Assembly (NCBI RefSeq): GCF_030655665.1
Contig: NZ_JAUSPQ010000006.1
Coordinates: 62,001 to 126,000 of the forward strand
Direction: 5' to 3'
DNA from: Methanocorpusculum sp.
GTDB lineage: Archaea > Halobacteriota > Methanomicrobia > Methanomicrobiales > Methanocorpusculaceae
DNA length: 64,000 nucleotides
Both the position numbers and the translations under genes were made by a program. Under the pieces are notes generated by a model. The model saw only the letters and a list, made by a program, of their open reading frames with translations. It searched no databases and was not told where the DNA came from. This document shows, piece by piece, positions 15,591-22,281 of this stretch. Position 1 is the first letter of the stretch, and the number at the start of each line of letters is the position of its first letter.

Positions 15591-15624
15591 TGGGGGCACA
15601 TCCCACGTGCACCCTAATTTTTCA
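15591..15624 (+). repeat. Left flanking copy of the GGGGGCAC hairpin
   Basis: TGGGGGCACATCCCACGTGC then ACCCTAATTTTTCA. It matches 21254-21286 at the far side of the AT-rich island, with two substitutions and a one-base indel over about 34 bases. The right arm carries one change (GTGCACCC for GTGCCCCC) that weakens the hairpin here. It lies 24 bases after the metallo-hydrolase stop and about 55 before the methyltransferase start. It could end transcription of the upstream operon, or mark where the island recombined. Confidence 0.65.
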
Positions 15625-15679
15625 TAATGGAGAGGCATGATTTAATATCTTGAAGATAGGTTATATTAATGAGAGGAAT

Positions 15680-16780
15680 ATGAATCTGAAAGAATTTGAT
15701 GATATAAAATATAATAATAAATATAAAAATTCTCTTAATTCTTTATCACCATATATAGGGAGACTTCGTTATGAGTGTGCAGGTTATTTAATTGATCAAT
15801 ATGCACAACCCGATGAATTAATATTTGATCCTTTTTGTGGTAGTGGAACAGTATTACTTGAAGGTTGGGCTAAAGGTTACAATGTAATGGGCAATGACCT
15901 TAATTATTATGCTTATGTACTAACTATGGGTAAATTATATCCATATCATACAGAAATAGAAGCATGTGTAGCGCTTGATAAATATAATAATCGAATAACC
16001 AAAAAAGCAAGTGAAATAAATTTGGATGTTATTCCTGAATGGGTACAATCATTTTACCACCCTCAAACACTTCGGGAAATAATTGCCTGGACGTATTATC
16101 TCAGACAACATAAGGAATGGTTCCTGCTAGCTTGTCTCATGGGTATTTTGCATCACCAACGTCCGGGATTTTTGTCATATCCCTCAAGTCACGGGGTACC
16201 TTATTTACGTACAAAAAAATACCCTCGGGAAAATTACCCGGAAATGTATTCATATAGGAATGTTTACGAAAAACTCAACGCAAAGGTAAAACGTAGTTAT
16301 AAATTTGTACCTAATTTGGATTTTTCAAAAGAGCGCATTGTTTATAACAAAAATTCTGCATCAATGAAGATTAAGCAAGACAGAATTGGCACAATAATTA
16401 CAAGTCCTCCATATATGAAATCACTAACATACGCACGTGATAATCGCTTGAGATTGTGGTTTTTAGGGAAAGACGATTGGAATTCGTTAGATCAAAAAAT
16501 ATCTCCACAAGGGAATGAATTTATCTTAATGATGAAGCAATGTATCAAAAAATGGTCTGAACATCAAATTTCTGGTGATACCTGCGTAGTTGTTCTTGGA
16601 GATATAAATATTCAATATAAAAATCAAAAAATGCCGCTGGCTGAAATGTTAACGGAAATTTCCTCAAAAAAATATCGTTTGGTTGAAGCATTTTATGATT
16701 CTATGCCCGAAGCAAAGAAACAGATTAAAGGTAAAGATTTAGTAAAAAGAGAGATAATTACTGTCTTAGAGAGATTGTGA
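15680..16780 (+). CDS. DNA methyltransferase (amino-methylating type)
   Basis: A 366-residue protein with the S-adenosylmethionine site DPFCGSGT at residues 50-57 and the catalytic TSPPY at about 241-245, a combination seen in enzymes that methylate N6 of adenine or N4 of cytosine. The order, SAM motif first and SPPY later with a long middle region, leaves a plausible target-recognition part at about 90-235. I chose the ATG at 15680, with GAGAGG just upstream; a TTG at 15650 would add ten residues. It is much richer in A+T than its neighbours and lies three bases ahead of the kinase/NTPase gene. No restriction nuclease is evident beside it. Confidence 0.8.
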   Translation: MNLKEFDDIKYNNKYKNSLNSLSPYIGRLRYECAGYLIDQYAQPDELIFDPFCGSGTVLLEGWAKGYNVMGNDLNYYAYVLTMGKLYPYHTEIEACVALDKYNNRITKKASEINLDVIPEWVQSFYHPQTLREIIAWTYYLRQHKEWFLLACLMGILHHQRPGFLSYPSSHGVPYLRTKKYPRENYPEMYSYRNVYEKLNAKVKRSYKFVPNLDFSKERIVYNKNSASMKIKQDRIGTIITSPPYMKSLTYARDNRLRLWFLGKDDWNSLDQKISPQGNEFILMMKQCIKKWSEHQISGDTCVVVLGDINIQYKNQKMPLAEMLTEISSKKYRLVEAFYDSMPEAKKQIKGKDLVKREIITVLERL

Positions 16781-16783
16781 AAA

Positions 16784-19282
16784 ATGGATTCTGATATTTT
16801 CATTGGTATTAATATAAATGGATATATAATTCAAGAGGAAATTGGCAAAGGATGTATTGGTAATGTCTTTAGAGGAGAGAAGGAAAATTATGGAAGTCGT
16901 GCAATTAAATTTGTTCCAAATGAAATGGTGTTAAAAAAACCAACATGGCAACAGGAAATCATTAAAGTTATTAAACTGGAACAAACAGAGGGGGTGGTAC
17001 GTTATCATGATCATGGATTTATAGAGATCTCTGGAAAAAACTATCTCTATATGATATGGGACTGTATTAATGGTGAAAGTCTCGCCAATATTATAAACAA
17101 TAAAAAAGTCACAATACAGATGTTGGTTGATATTATTGATCGAACATTAGCAGTTTTTTATGCATGCAAAATGGTGGGAATTCAACACTCTGACTTTCAT
17201 TCTGGAAATATTATAATTGAAAATCCAGACCCATTATCAATTAATCCAAATCAGCGTAGGGTATTTATAACAGATTTTGGATATGGCACTTTCTCACCCC
17301 ATGTTGTTTCCGAAGAAATAATGGATGATTATAAAGGTTTTGCACATATTATTCAAGAATGTCTCGCATCAATTGACATGCATTCTCTTGAGCAGGAGGA
17401 TAAAAATAAATATCGGGTACTTAAAAATGAATTCCCAAAATTATTACTTGAAAATAATATAACAGAGGGTGAGTATGTAAAAAATCCACATGAACTTCGG
17501 AACGCATTGTATGTATTATTTAATAAAGATAAATCCTCTCAAATAATGGATAAAAATGTTGGGGATTATTTGGTCGCAGAATACATGGGGGAGCGTTATG
17601 ATGAGTGGCAAGCATTATTTGTTCCAAAATTTTTAGCAACAAATGAATTATTTGATAAAAATATTTGTGTTTTAACAGGTCTTCGAGGATGCGGAAAAAC
17701 AACTATCTTTATGAGAGTGAGTGATGATTTAAAAAGGAAATTAGGTAATGCAGGCATTCCCGGGGAAGATGGATTTATAGGGTTGTATTTGAATGCAAGG
17801 ACAATTGGAGAGGCTTTTCCTTGGCTACCATTAGATAAGCAAGATGTGGCACGTAAACAAGTCATCAATTATTTCAATCTAAAGTGGACCATTCAAATTC
17901 TCCAATGGTTACGATGCGAGGTAGAGATATATAATGATTTAAATTGTTCATGGGTAAGTTCATTCTTTACTAAGTATCTGAAAGATTGTTATTTTACTAG
18001 TACATCTAATGAAGGAATTATAAATACAGCTATTTCAGGATGTGAGAGAGAGTTATTAAAATGTAAACTGGGTGCCGCATATATGCCTGAGATAAAATGG
18101 GCATTTTCTGATTATGATTATTTAGAGATATTAACTAAATTAATCAACAATAAGTGTGTTTTTTCCCAAAAAAAAGATTTCTTCCTTTTCCTCGATGATT
18201 ACTCATCACCAATGATTAATGAGTGTACTCAAAAAATACTTAACCCGATTATTTTCAGGCGTACATCAACAGTTTTCTTTAAGATATCCACAGAAAGTGT
18301 TGAAACTTTTTTCCCCTATGGACTAAATAATAAAACTCTTGAAGAAAATAATGATTATAAACTGATCGATCTTAGCATAAAATCGATAACGGAAGAGGGT
18401 GATACTAAAAATGAAGATATTATTTATTCGATTTTTGAACGTAGAATTAATAGAAGTGATCTCTTTGCCAAATGTAATACTAATTTAAATGAGTTATTAG
18501 GGAATATCCGTATTGCAGGTAATACTCGAGCAAGTAAAATAAAGAAAAATGAAGCAAATACATATTATGGGACAGGAGTTTTTTATGATATATGGTCAAG
18601 TGATATCAGGCAGTTAATTAAAATATTCTCACAAATGGTATCAGAAGAAACTCAAAATGGCGATATTTTAAAAAGGATTGCGGATGTGCGTTCTCACAGC
18701 AGTACCTCTAATAATCCTATAATACAGAAAACTAATCAGGATAATGTGTTTCGCAAGGCAGGTGGAATGTATCTTAATGTATTGAAAACGGCAACAAATT
18801 CCTGTGATAAAGCCATCATTTACGATAAACCTGATCCAGAAACATATGGTGAACATCTATTCAATATTTCATCCGCGTGCCAGAGAATGTTCTATTATGA
18901 TTTGAAAAACAAAACTTCAAAAAATGGGGATCGAAATCCGCCCAAACAAGCTAGAAGAATAGAAATATCTGATGGATCAATAATTGGAAAACTAGACCCA
19001 ATTGCTGAATGTTATTATAGAGGTCTTATCAGATATGGTGTCTTTGTTGAAGATCCACGCGGAAAAAGTGTCCGAAGTTCAGTTGCAACAAGAATATATT
19101 TACGTAGTTTATTTGTACCATATTTTAACATTACTTTTTCTAAAAGGGATAGTATAACTCTAGGTTGGGAAGATTTTAAAGAGTTACTTCTTACACCAGA
19201 TGATTTTGCAAAAAAATATACGAAATTGAATGATGAAAGCCAGAAAGAATTATTTGGAAATGAGAATGATTGGGACGAATAA
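16784..19282 (+). CDS. Ser/Thr kinase fused to a P-loop NTPase
   Basis: An 832-residue protein. Residues 10-200 form a protein kinase with intact core residues: glycine loop IGKGCIGNVF, K42 in AIKF, E58 in the C-helix, D136 and N141 in HSDFHSGN (HSD replaces HRD) and D163 in DFG. A separate NTPase follows: Walker A TGLRGCGKTT at about 299-308 and a Walker B-like FFLFLDDYSS at about 465-475. The remaining 350 residues have no motif I recognise and may be a helical sensor or regulatory part. Such ATPases occur among AAA/STAND and Orc-like groups. Position between a methyltransferase and an unknown gene suggests phage defence, which is inference. Very AT-rich. Confidence 0.8.
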   Translation: MDSDIFIGININGYIIQEEIGKGCIGNVFRGEKENYGSRAIKFVPNEMVLKKPTWQQEIIKVIKLEQTEGVVRYHDHGFIEISGKNYLYMIWDCINGESLANIINNKKVTIQMLVDIIDRTLAVFYACKMVGIQHSDFHSGNIIIENPDPLSINPNQRRVFITDFGYGTFSPHVVSEEIMDDYKGFAHIIQECLASIDMHSLEQEDKNKYRVLKNEFPKLLLENNITEGEYVKNPHELRNALYVLFNKDKSSQIMDKNVGDYLVAEYMGERYDEWQALFVPKFLATNELFDKNICVLTGLRGCGKTTIFMRVSDDLKRKLGNAGIPGEDGFIGLYLNARTIGEAFPWLPLDKQDVARKQVINYFNLKWTIQILQWLRCEVEIYNDLNCSWVSSFFTKYLKDCYFTSTSNEGIINTAISGCERELLKCKLGAAYMPEIKWAFSDYDYLEILTKLINNKCVFSQKKDFFLFLDDYSSPMINECTQKILNPIIFRRTSTVFFKISTESVETFFPYGLNNKTLEENNDYKLIDLSIKSITEEGDTKNEDIIYSIFERRINRSDLFAKCNTNLNELLGNIRIAGNTRASKIKKNEANTYYGTGVFYDIWSSDIRQLIKIFSQMVSEETQNGDILKRIADVRSHSSTSNNPIIQKTNQDNVFRKAGGMYLNVLKTATNSCDKAIIYDKPDPETYGEHLFNISSACQRMFYYDLKNKTSKNGDRNPPKQARRIEISDGSIIGKLDPIAECYYRGLIRYGVFVEDPRGKSVRSSVATRIYLRSLFVPYFNITFSKRDSITLGWEDFKELLLTPDDFAKKYTKLNDESQKELFGNENDWDE

Positions 19283-19283
19283 A

Positions 19284-20342
19284 ATGGGACGATTACCAGT
19301 TATTGAAGAAGCTTCTAATATAGATAGAAATTCCAACTCAAAAATATTATTAATTATTTCAGAAGGGTTTGAATCACGATCATTATCTTGGATTACCTCA
19401 CAACCAAAGAGCAGCAGTCTATTTAATGAAGCATGGGTTTGTAAATATGACCCCAGTAAAAAATCCAAATATCTAGCTATGATACAGGAAGTCTCGTGTA
19501 GGACCAATGATGTACACACGATTGAGTTTAACCGATTCAGTCCCACTATTTTTGAACAAGAATTAAATGGCCGCATGTCTCAAATAAATCGTTTTGATGA
19601 AATTATAATTGATATCACTGTGATGTCAAAGATTCTCATTATGATACTATTGTGTTCACTTAAAATATATAATAAAAAACTCACAATTATTTATTCAGAA
19701 CCCATAACTTGGAGTCCATCTCTAGAAAAATACAATGAGGAAATCTCTAAACGTAATATTTGTGATAATGGCAGCATTCTCACTTATTTTGGTCTTTCAT
19801 CAGTAGGAGTATATGACATTGTCAAAACACCAAAACTATCTAGTATTGTTATGCAAAATAGTCCATCTATTTTGATTGCATTTTTATCGTTTAATGAACA
19901 ACTCCTTACAGTTTTACTAAATAATACAAACCCCGAATCCATATTCCTTATTAACACTATAAATGAGAGAGAAACTTGGAGAGAAGAAGCAACTATTGAG
20001 ATTCATAAAAATATTATTAACACATCTCCCCTATATGAAGGTGTTCAGAATTACAAATTAACAGATTACATCGGTGTTTTTGAGAATATTGCAAAAATTT
20101 ATCAAGAGAATTATTATTCTAATCGGATAATAATTTCTCCAACAGGATGTAAACTCCATGCAGTTGCTTGTGCACTTATGAAAAATTGTTGCTCAGATAT
20201 TCACGTGGAATATCCAATACCTAATAGTTATATTTTTGAGGGTTATTCAAGTGATGAAATCTATAAAATACATCAGATTGTATTCGATTCATATATGGAC
20301 GATATGAGATCTATAGCAGAAGAATATCATTTGAATGGCTAA
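19284..20342 (+). CDS. Unrecognised Rossmann-like protein of the AT-rich island
   Basis: A 352-residue protein whose family I cannot name. Two regions have the strand-loop-helix look of Rossmann-type nucleotide-binding folds: DEIIIDITVMSKILIMILLC with a following LTIIYSEP (about residues 101-137), and NRIIISPTGCKLHAVACALM with DIHVEYPIP (about 279-312). In both, a strand ends in (D/S)-x-T-x-x-x-K or its near form, recalling the ligand loop of CARF-like sensor domains; this is weak inference. The N-terminus KILLIISEGFESRSLSWI is a further strand and loop. The start ATG at 19284 lies two bases after the kinase/NTPase stop; earlier in-frame ATGs (for example 19266) lie inside that gene. Confidence 0.65.
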   Translation: MGRLPVIEEASNIDRNSNSKILLIISEGFESRSLSWITSQPKSSSLFNEAWVCKYDPSKKSKYLAMIQEVSCRTNDVHTIEFNRFSPTIFEQELNGRMSQINRFDEIIIDITVMSKILIMILLCSLKIYNKKLTIIYSEPITWSPSLEKYNEEISKRNICDNGSILTYFGLSSVGVYDIVKTPKLSSIVMQNSPSILIAFLSFNEQLLTVLLNNTNPESIFLINTINERETWREEATIEIHKNIINTSPLYEGVQNYKLTDYIGVFENIAKIYQENYYSNRIIISPTGCKLHAVACALMKNCCSDIHVEYPIPNSYIFEGYSSDEIYKIHQIVFDSYMDDMRSIAEEYHLNG

Positions 20343-20500
20343 AATAGTAAAATTTCAATTTTTCTGCAATTGCCTTTGAAAATCATAGAATAGTTCCTCC
20401 CTCGTGATTATAATACCTCAAAAATACTCCGGGAACACCGGGTACGCTGAATTCGTGTATCGGAGAGGTGTGGATGGATGAGATATCCCACTCCTTTTTA

Positions 20501-20524
20501 GAAAAACCGGCACGCCGGTTTTTC
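20501..20524. terminator. Perfect hairpin GAAAAACCGG/CCGGTTTTTC
   Basis: Ten paired bases with a CACG loop, ending TTTTTC in both directions, about 160 bases after the last island gene. It can act as a terminator for the island, or as part of the larger structured element that begins at 20529. The 160 bases between the gene and the hairpin hold nothing I recognise. Confidence 0.5.
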
Positions 20525-20528
20525 CCTA

Positions 20529-20631
20529 GCATTTTTCCAGACGGCGTGCGATTCCTGCGCAGGCGATCAGCCGGAGCAGAGCACGACGACGCAAGAAAAA
20601 TGCGATTCGCGGAGATTCGCGATTATTCGCG
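20529..20631 (+). repeat. Structured GC-rich element with phased ATTCGCG repeats, copy 1
   Basis: GCATTTTTC (20529-20537) pairs perfectly with GAAAAATGC (20595-20603), enclosing 57 GC-rich bases that contain the small palindrome CCTGCGCAGG. Directly after come three ATTCGCG motifs at 20605, 20615 and 20625, exactly ten bases apart. The same build (closing stem, inner hairpin, ten-base-phased ATTCGCG) occurs at 63878-63994. Both lie at the right side of an AT-rich gene block. It may be an attachment or transfer site, a protein-bound array or an RNA; none is established. Confidence 0.6.
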
Positions 20632-20645
20632 GTGGAATATTTAAT

Positions 20646-20990
20646 GTGTCCACATATGACCAACTCCTTGCCGATATAGATCAAAAACCCAAAATACATT
20701 TGGACACATTTTTTTCAAAACCCTGGGAAAAATTTTAAAAACCTAATTCTAAGCTTATATAGAGCTTATTTCATTTCTACCATACTAAAAACAGAGTTTT
20801 GGAAAAAATGTGTCCAAACTGGGAAAACCCCTATATACAGCTCTTTTTTTCAAAAAACCAGAATTACAAAGATTTTTCGTGGACACGTGCAGTTTTCGAA
20901 ACGTGTCCAAAACATCCCAAAAAAATGAGTTGGACAGGTATGAAAAATACAACGTGTCCAAAATCAACACCCACTTTTCATGGTGAGTGG
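20646..20990 (+). ncRNA. Three-hairpin unit 1 (GGACAC/GTGTCC arms)
   Basis: Candidate structured RNA or DNA element. Hairpin 1: TTTGGACACA (20699-20708) pairs with TGTGTCCAAA (20809-20818); pairing continues inward through the T-rich part to CAAAAC/GTTTTG, about 23 pairs with one mismatch. It also encloses AAGCT/AGCTT. Hairpin 2: TGGACACGT (20880-20888) with ACGTGTCCA (20901-20909). Hairpin 3: TTGGACA (20930-20936) with TGTCCAA (20955-20961). An unpaired GTGTCCA sits at 20646 and a GTGGACC at 20987. A TATA-like GGAATATTTAATG at 20634-20646 could start a transcript near 20670. No coding frame fits. Unit 2 repeats the layout with altered arms. Confidence 0.55.
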
Positions 20991-21286
20991 ACCTGATCAA
21001 CTCCTTCTTAACAGAGTCCCATCCGGGGGCACATTTTTCTCAAAACCCTGGAAAAAATTTCAAACACCTGAATCTAAGCTCATATTGAGGTTATTTCTTA
21101 TTCCTCATACAAAAAATAGAGTTTTGGGAAAAATGTGCCCCCACATCAAAAACTCAGCAAATATAGCTTTTTTCCAAATAAAACCCGCAAATCAACCGGA
21201 TTTTGGGGGCACGTAGATTTTCCAGATGTGCCCCCAACTCAAACAAAAATATCTGGGGGCACATACCACGTGCCCCCGATTTTTCA
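20991..21286 (+). ncRNA. Three-hairpin unit 2 (GGGGGCAC/GTGCCCCC arms)
   Basis: A diverged paralogue of unit 1, beginning with the shared TGATCAACTCCTT (TGACCAACTCCTT in unit 1). Hairpin 1: GGGGGCACA (21025-21033) with TGTGCCCCC (21134-21142), extended through the T-rich part as in unit 1, and an inner CTCA/TGAG. Hairpin 2: TTGGGGGCACGT (21203-21214) with ATGTGCCCCCAA (21226-21237), one wobble pair. Hairpin 3: GGGGGCAC (21255-21262) with GTGCCCCC (21270-21277). Every arm differs from unit 1 in the same way, and each pair stays complementary. Spacing of hairpins 1 and 2 is conserved within a base. The stretch 21287-21414 up to rio1 holds only a possible promoter. Confidence 0.55.
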
Positions 21287-21414: not shown

Positions 21415-22281
21415 ATGTCCCCCGAAAAAAACCGCAAACCTAAAACTTGCTCACCGCCACGATCCGCATCTTCAGCAGATCACCACCAGGACCAGGACGG
21501 CAGGATCGAATACCTCGACCGTAAACTCTCCGAACTCGGCATCAGACTCAAAGACGCCGACTCAAGAAAAGTCACCGGCGAAGTCTTTGACGAAGTCACT
21601 CTTTTAGCGCTCTACAAACTCGTAAAGAAAAATATCATCACATCCATGGGAGGATCCATATCCACCGGCAAGGAAGCCAACGTATTCCTTGCAGGAAAAA
21701 CCGACGATGCAGGGGAAGAGATCTCTGCCGCCGTCAAAATCTATCGGATCAGAACAGGGAACTTCACCACGATGAGTGATTACATCATCGGTGATCCCCG
21801 GTTCTCCGGCATTCGCCGGACCCACAAAGACATCATCTTTGCCTGGACGAAAAAAGAGTACAGCAACCTATCGCGAACGAGGGAAGCCGGCATCCCCTGC
21901 CCGACCCCGTATGCGTTCGACAGAAACATCCTCGTCATGGAATTTCTCGGGACCGGGAACATCCCCTATCCCCAGATGCGTCTCCGCCTCCCGGGAACTC
22001 CCGAAGAAGGCTACGAGGAGACCATCGGACTCATCCGCGATCTCTATCAGAAAGCCCGTCTTGTTCACGGCGATCTGTCCGAGTACAACATCCTCACCGG
22101 ACCTGACGGACTCATCTTAATTGATATGGCACAGGCTGTGATCCCCGAACACCCCCGGGCCTACAATTTCCTTTTCAGGGACATCAAAAACATCAACAGA
22201 TTTTTTGGCACCAAATGTAAAACAACCGACGAACACGAACTCTTCAGAGACATCGTCGGAGAAGAATTTTTCGAGATATAA
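21415..22281 (+). CDS. rio1: RIO-type serine kinase Rio1
   Basis: A 288-residue atypical kinase involved in maturation of the small ribosomal subunit in Archaea and Eukarya. The RIO1 marks are STGKEANVF (nucleotide loop, about residue 82), VKIYRI (catalytic Lys), HGDLSEYNIL (about 217) and LIDMAQAV (metal-binding Asp, about 233). A 60-residue N-terminal part includes a polar tail and the RIO-specific helices. It is followed after three bases by the KH-protein gene, whose eukaryal homologue Pno1/Dim2 acts in the same pathway, so the pair is a functional operon. Confidence 0.93.
   Translation: MSPEKNRKPKTCSPPRSASSADHHQDQDGRIEYLDRKLSELGIRLKDADSRKVTGEVFDEVTLLALYKLVKKNIITSMGGSISTGKEANVFLAGKTDDAGEEISAAVKIYRIRTGNFTTMSDYIIGDPRFSGIRRTHKDIIFAWTKKEYSNLSRTREAGIPCPTPYAFDRNILVMEFLGTGNIPYPQMRLRLPGTPEEGYEETIGLIRDLYQKARLVHGDLSEYNILTGPDGLILIDMAQAVIPEHPRAYNFLFRDIKNINRFFGTKCKTTDEHELFRDIVGEEFFEI

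Follow-up and report, generated by a model that had tools for sequence, protein, structure and literature searches.

A 64,000-bp window of a Methanocorpusculum sp. genome (contig NZ_JAUSPQ010000006.1, positions 62,001 to 126,000) carries two related repeat units, A and B, before the rio1 kinase gene. Each unit of this family very probably serves a mobile element as a replication origin of the iteron type, with a D5/SF3 initiator helicase encoded beside it. Observations on the anatomy of the units, their linkage to helicase genes, the concordance between unit class and helicase wing, the generality of the arrangement, the orphan status of units A and B and the conservation of their half-sites led to this interpretation.

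Both three-pair units that an earlier note had described from the sequence of the window are present. Each has six half-sites arranged as three inverted pairs. A half-site has 10 bp and consists of a five-base class word and CASRT, that is, TTGGA-CASRT in unit A and GGGGG-CASRT in unit B. The word TTGGA (GTGGA once) of unit A is followed by CACAT, CACGT or CAGGT, and the word GGGGG of unit B by CACAT or CACGT. The first pair is long, with arms of 25–27 nt, a complementarity of 92–93% and an enclosed AT-rich stretch. Pair 1 of unit A (20699–20818; no strand is assigned to this or any other pair) has two class-A half-sites (TTGGACACAT; 20700–20709 and 20807–20816) at the ends of an inverted repeat of about 120 bp round an AT-rich core, which is a candidate DNA-unwinding element. 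Pair 2 (20879–20910; half-sites 20879–20888 and 20901–20910) reads GTGGACACGT / TTGGACACGT, pair 3 (20930–20961; 20930–20939 and 20952–20961) TTGGACAGGT / TTGGACACGT. In unit B, two class-B half-sites (GGGGGCACAT; 21025–21034 and 21133–21142) flank the AT-rich core of pair 1 (21025–21142). Pair 2 (21205–21235; 21205–21214 and 21226–21235; GGGGGCACGT / GGGGGCACAT) and pair 3 (21255–21277; 21255–21264 and 21268–21277; GGGGGCACAT / GGGGGCACGT) follow. This last pair is about one helical turn shorter than pair 3 of classes A and D. The sequence GGGGGCAC occurs seven times in the window, with 1.2 occurrences expected, and six of the seven lie within unit B. The scheme of GGACAC and GTGTCC arms proposed earlier for unit A largely holds; its third left arm is GGACAG instead of GGACAC, and the GTGTCC at 20646 lies outside the six sites.

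Further copies were located by sequence search of the genome and its genus relatives. On contigs C4 and C6 of the source genome (1.81 Mb) lie three further complete units, and the genome also has a lone pair 3. Together with the genus relatives, the set comprises about 22 units in four word classes, defined by the five bases before the constant CA: TTGGA in class A, GGGGG in B, GGGTG or GGGAG in C and (A/G)GTGT in D. Any arm may have C or G as the third base after the word (half-site position 8). The placement of the half-sites hardly varies, and in most units they lie at -8, 71, 151, 163/164, 202 and 206 or 216 from a fixed anchor. An AT-rich core lies between the half-sites of pair 1 in 22 units, and the conserved core CAAAACCCTGGGAAAA...GAGTTT is common to all units. 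Three large length differences among units (about +20, +11/12 and -9/10 bp) are near whole helical turns, a spacing that is suggestive only, given the few events. Pair 1 of both window units is 20 bp longer than in all other units. The insertion occurs in A and B and is absent from their orthologues; an exchange of sequence between the two cores in this lineage, with the words kept distinct, is the suggested explanation. At one site in M. labreanum and in G016 (L037, L040), two units of classes C and D lie back to back, neither of them with a helicase gene.

In complete contexts, no more than a few tens of bases separate the start of the unit from the stop codon of a D5_N/SF3-helicase gene, and in most of the roughly 22 loci units lie directly behind such genes or their remnants. 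Both the D5_N domain and the SF3 helicase core were found in the adjacent helicases: PF08706 (D5_N) was detected with an E-value of 1e-8, PHROG primase/helicase families with values down to 4e-52, and the protein matches the helicase region of poxvirus D5 in the PDB. The word class agrees with the last ~18 residues of the helicase, the wing, in all 11 loci with a readable wing. The wings end with ..EVKSGAGRFFNCQLKSGS in class A, ..EKKNHGTRYFNCVLKNL in B, ..EKTVRGTRFFSCVLKK in C and ..ELRTNSQRYFKCRLK in D. Wing identity is 72–100% within a class and 33–67% between classes, while the helicase bodies share 82–100% whether they belong to the same or to different classes. The class-D helicase of M. 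labreanum and the class-A helicase of L051 have 98% identical bodies and 41% identical wings; for the class-D helicase of M. parvum and the class-C helicase of UBA424, the values are 95% and 41%. Since the body is nearly identical while the wing differs between classes, these alignments indicate that a short block of wing and unit is exchanged onto a shared helicase body.

A structural model of the C-terminal domain (11 sequences) has a winged-helix topology (predicted local distance difference test score, pLDDT, 76; predicted template modelling score 0.69), and the class-specific residues form the wing. A full-length AlphaFold model of the helicase (four sequences) was poor (pLDDT 39.6) and was not used. 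In a Foldseek search with the C-terminal model, RFX domains ranked first and second and the origin-binding domain of phage P4 (1ka8) fourth, with E-values of 0.06–0.2. RFX domains use their wing to read the major groove, and a wing that sets the word would be in keeping with this; the resemblance is a lead. Upstream of the helicase gene, L047, L035 and L052 have a divergent ribbon-helix-helix-like gene, with a zinc ribbon in L047 and L035, which possibly encodes a regulator.

The proposed mechanism starts with binding of the six NNNNN-CASRT half-sites by the C-terminal winged-helix domain of the initiator. Within this domain, the conserved part would recognise the universal CASRT and the variable wing the class word of five nucleotides. 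The inverted half-sites of pair 1 would load helicase rings, and the AT-rich stretch of ~80–100 bp would be melted. Pairs 2 and 3 would supply extra initiator sites. The initiator would be a self-loading helicase, as in phage-inducible chromosomal islands (PICIs), Staphylococcus aureus pathogenicity islands (SaPIs) and the plasmid pRN1. Wing and half-sites would diverge together into at least four classes (A–D), be swapped as a block onto the common helicase body and act like incompatibility groups.

The arrangement extends beyond the close family. A D5 gene of 39–42% identity within the genus has the same long pair behind it, with the new word TGGAG-CACAT. Behind a 38% identical helicase (L062, G022), four direct copies of GAGTGATTCTC (GAGTGATTCTCA repeats) form a plain iteron array rather than inverted pairs. 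D5 genes from other families of the order have behind them an AT-rich core with words round it, for example GGGG-CACAT, AGGG-CACAT, CGGGA-CACAT, TGCGT-CACT, CCGG-CACAT, ATGA-CACAT and GGA-CACCAT. This core is nearly identical within the g13 group. Perfect inverted arms of at least 9 nt with a gap of 40–115 nt were present just behind the stop codon in 15 of 25 D5 genes of other Methanomicrobiales; dinucleotide shuffles yielded a mean of 0.5 and a maximum of 2. D5 genes in viral contigs had four iteron types (GTAGATAG, GGGATAGTT, GGGARTGAAA and GGAAGAGTTTT), each with its own wing sequence, and no close relative of the Methanocorpusculum helicase was found in the viral contigs searched. The comparison indicates an order-wide presence of repeats behind D5 genes, with hypervariable words that are inverted or iterated.

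The earlier note knew of no described element of this form. Precedents exist: iteron or stem-loop origins directly behind an SF3-helicase gene have been described (PMC6092414, PMC4234260, PMC7581432). In PICI origins, which lie just downstream of the initiator gene, two iteron sets enclose an AT-rich region (PMC6092414), and Rep of SaPIs and Cch2 of the staphylococcal cassette chromosome mec (SCCmec) read iterons via the C-terminal domain (PMC7581432). As in PICIs and SaPIs, the repeats here lie immediately 3' of an SF3/D5-type helicase gene across the family, though not in the orphan units A and B, and two element-specific repeat sets flank an AT-rich region. Cch2 is also of the D5_N type, and its iteron AAGTG has the same GTG/CAC core (PMC7581432). 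Unlike PICIs and SaPIs, the units have archaeal hosts and two extra inverted pairs, are often orphaned and have classes that appear to be exchanged as wing-plus-origin blocks. PICI regulator, integrase or packaging genes were not recognised beside them; because an integrase, repressor or packaging module was lacking among the recognised genes, the units were not filed as PICIs.

The origin of pRN1 is a stem-loop of ~100 bp (21-nt stem, 58-nt loop) behind an SF3/winged-helix gene and is needed for replication; its form is conserved, its sequence is not (PMC4234260). pRN1 is an archaeal replicon with an SF3 helicase and a C-terminal winged helix, as is proposed for the elements here, and pair 1 resembles its stem-loop in place, stem and loop size. 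The plasmid has a single stem-loop, no recognised iterons and a prim-pol domain, whereas the elements here have six half-sites and no recognised prim-pol domain, and conserve the sequence of the half-sites rather than pairing. The alpha protein of phage P4 shares the D5-like helicase, the winged-helix origin-binding domain (1ka8) and repeated binding sites (ori/crr), and the P4 iterons differ from the half-site words. P4 alpha has, in addition, a TOPRIM-type primase (PMC4234260). Initiator–origin modules are also exchanged between related elements in the RepA-origin system of the Vibrio PICI-like elements (PLEs), where iteron diversification can be driven by counter-defence involving the phage nuclease Odn (PMC8263062). 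The PLE initiator belongs to another family, and no origin-directed nuclease was identified here. By analogy, the best reading on present evidence is that the units work like the origins of PICIs/SaPIs, Cch2 and pRN1. No report of such origins in Methanocorpusculum was found in the open literature that was searched.

Neither a class-A nor a class-B helicase gene is present in the source genome, whose two full helicase copies belong to classes C and D. As their initiator genes are missing from the window, units A and B are probably orphan origins that have lost the cognate genes. The sequence at 20962–20990 (minus strand) resembles the D5 3' end behind the class-A unit L051 and is followed by a flank as found before other units (CAACTCCTTC..). 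The junction is the same in three species, and the stretch is a probable remnant of the 3' end of a lost class-A D5-helicase gene. The rio1 kinase gene (21415–22281, plus strand) is the chromosomal neighbour that marks the insertion site. An A–B tandem with the same junction precedes it in the source genome, M. labreanum and M. parvum. Elsewhere, the rio1 site has a lone unit of class D (UBA424), class C (UBA425) or class A (G016). In G005 it is apparently empty, the sole empty-looking site seen.

Between species, the orphan half-sites are 98–100% (A) and 93–95% (B) identical; the rest of the units, with gaps left out, shares 82–83% (A) and 69–71% (B). The difference between half-sites and the rest is significant (Fisher p 8e-4 to 5e-5). 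Such conservation suggests a use in trans; for unit B, a recent loss of the helicase gene may be the explanation instead. It is a rather doubtful, speculative extension that the orphan origins are functional in trans and are recognised by an incoming initiator of the same class. They could then titrate the initiator, an immunity by origin decoy, or be fired and spread the adjacent defence cargo. If this were true, orphan origins would be an archaeal analogue of phage satellites, with specificity classes set by a swappable wing-plus-origin block.

The island at 15650–20342 has three genes on the plus strand: a DNA methyltransferase of the N6/N4 type (15650–16780), a protein kinase fused to an ORC/CDC6-like ATPase (16784–19282) and a CARF-like protein (19230–20342). 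Homologues with 92%, 77% and 91% identity, respectively, form an island of M. labreanum at the same relative position beside a class-D unit (L038). Weak PADLOC matches to CARF-STK-AAA and to PD-T4-6/mads6 kinase models make the island look like a defence system carried as cargo, and the methyltransferase–kinase–CARF set looks exchangeable. An association of the units with this gene set, as initially suggested, finds limited agreement in the one homologous island of M. labreanum. The units are not specific to it: many different cargos, or none, occur beside D5 genes. Beyond pair 1, other loci have variable cargo, including pentapeptide-repeat channel proteins as well as Schlafen/AlbA-like and PIN-like proteins (the names Schlafen and PIN come from sequence reading rather than library search). 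A protein of ~158 amino acids (..MDAKELEEDVRGLYSPDTKAAYASFLRLKAE..) recurs at the far cargo end in L038, L042, L043, L047 and L048.

The flank of unit A (20343–20698, no strand assigned; compare L009 1860–1900 and L036/L033) contains a 5'-end remnant of a pentapeptide-repeat cargo gene (~20385–20425), and its part at ~20630–20670 is also present on the outer side of hairpin 1 in other units. The stretch at 20480–20640 beside unit A contains inverted repeats rich in GC and repeats of the GCGATTCGCGG type, which recur near other units. A lone pair-3 copy (15592–15614, no strand assigned) lies between a metallo-beta-lactamase-fold gene and the methyltransferase gene and combines a class-B left half with a class-C right half (GGGGGCACATCCCACGTGCACCC). 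In M. parvum, elements at two chromosomal sites (L034, L035) have their flanks swapped in comparison with other species, as would result from recombination between copies of the element, by chromosomal inversion or translocation.

Binding of a D5 or another winged-helix protein would suit the half-sites equally well in a regulatory operator array that controls the helicase gene or the cargo, and the units do sit between the two. Yet they are located behind the helicase gene and not before it, the AT-rich core between the pair-1 sites is itself conserved and the layout matches known SF3/D5 origins, which makes an operator improbable. Slightly less probable still is a site for site-specific recombination or resolution (att/res-like) with the pairs as recombinase sites. 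The lone pair-3 copy at the other island edge and the reshuffled flanks, with the sides of two elements exchanged in M. parvum, would fit such a site; the reshuffling is also explained by homologous recombination between repeated units. Recombinase genes were not recognised next to the units, it is the helicase wing and not a recombinase that the word follows, and the repeats are tied to D5 genes order-wide.

The earlier proposal of a structured non-coding RNA whose three hairpins are selected for pairing and serve the methyltransferase–kinase system is very improbable. In its favour are the three inverted pairs, one with a stem of 25–27 nt, and the paired differences between the arms of A and B. 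Between these two units the matched changes are real, but across the family as a whole all six half-sites change together and several partner positions are fixed mismatches. Independent stems need not share one word in all six arms, nor change it in all six. In several classes, the arms of pairs 2 and 3 disagree at half-site position 8, one having C and the other G, a fixed mismatch. All three pairs of the class-C unit L037 set A against A at word position 4, and the long arms have fixed mismatches at positions 16, 18 and 23. One-sided G-U/A-C changes in the long stem lack a strand preference (39 versus 28). An Rfam search (E ≤ 1) yielded a chance microRNA match and no family. Some units lack the island, and the island is also seen next to another class. 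With fixed mismatches, no wobble bias and no Rfam match, an RNA family was rejected, and selection on base pairing is strongly disfavoured. The other option of the earlier note, one binding sequence common to the arms and changed as a set, is supported by one class word in six half-sites that tracks the adjacent D5 wing and by the uncompensated C/G variation at position 8. Transposon ends were rejected because the units lie on one side of the helicase gene, not at both element ends, and no transposase was recognised; targeted integration at tRNA genes was discarded as tRNA-Leu adjoins only some of the sites.

Several points weigh against the origin interpretation. Binding, origin activity, replication and incompatibility are inferred. 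Because wing and half-sites adjoin on the DNA, inheritance as one linked block could account for part of their concordance. The structural matches of the helicase C-terminal domain have weak E-values. No integrase was recognised among the neighbouring genes, and neither an integrase nor a repressor module was recognised by eye in the open reading frames round the helicase genes, of which a few were compared with family libraries. No obvious pair follows the stop codon in some D5 genes of the order (L100–L103, L106).

Two features of these probable origins are unusual, the swappable blocks of wing and origin specificity and the conserved orphan origins beside cargo. The origin type of PICIs and pRN1 would extend to methanogens, in which conserved orphan copies would be retained next to exchangeable cargo that looks partly defence-like. 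A search for archaeal replicons could use, as a simple signature, inverted NNNNN-CASRT pairs behind a D5 gene. Initiator wing and origin word would form a readable code, with four close classes on one helicase body and more words in other families. Domain swaps on this one body could therefore test the evolution of replication specificity and incompatibility.
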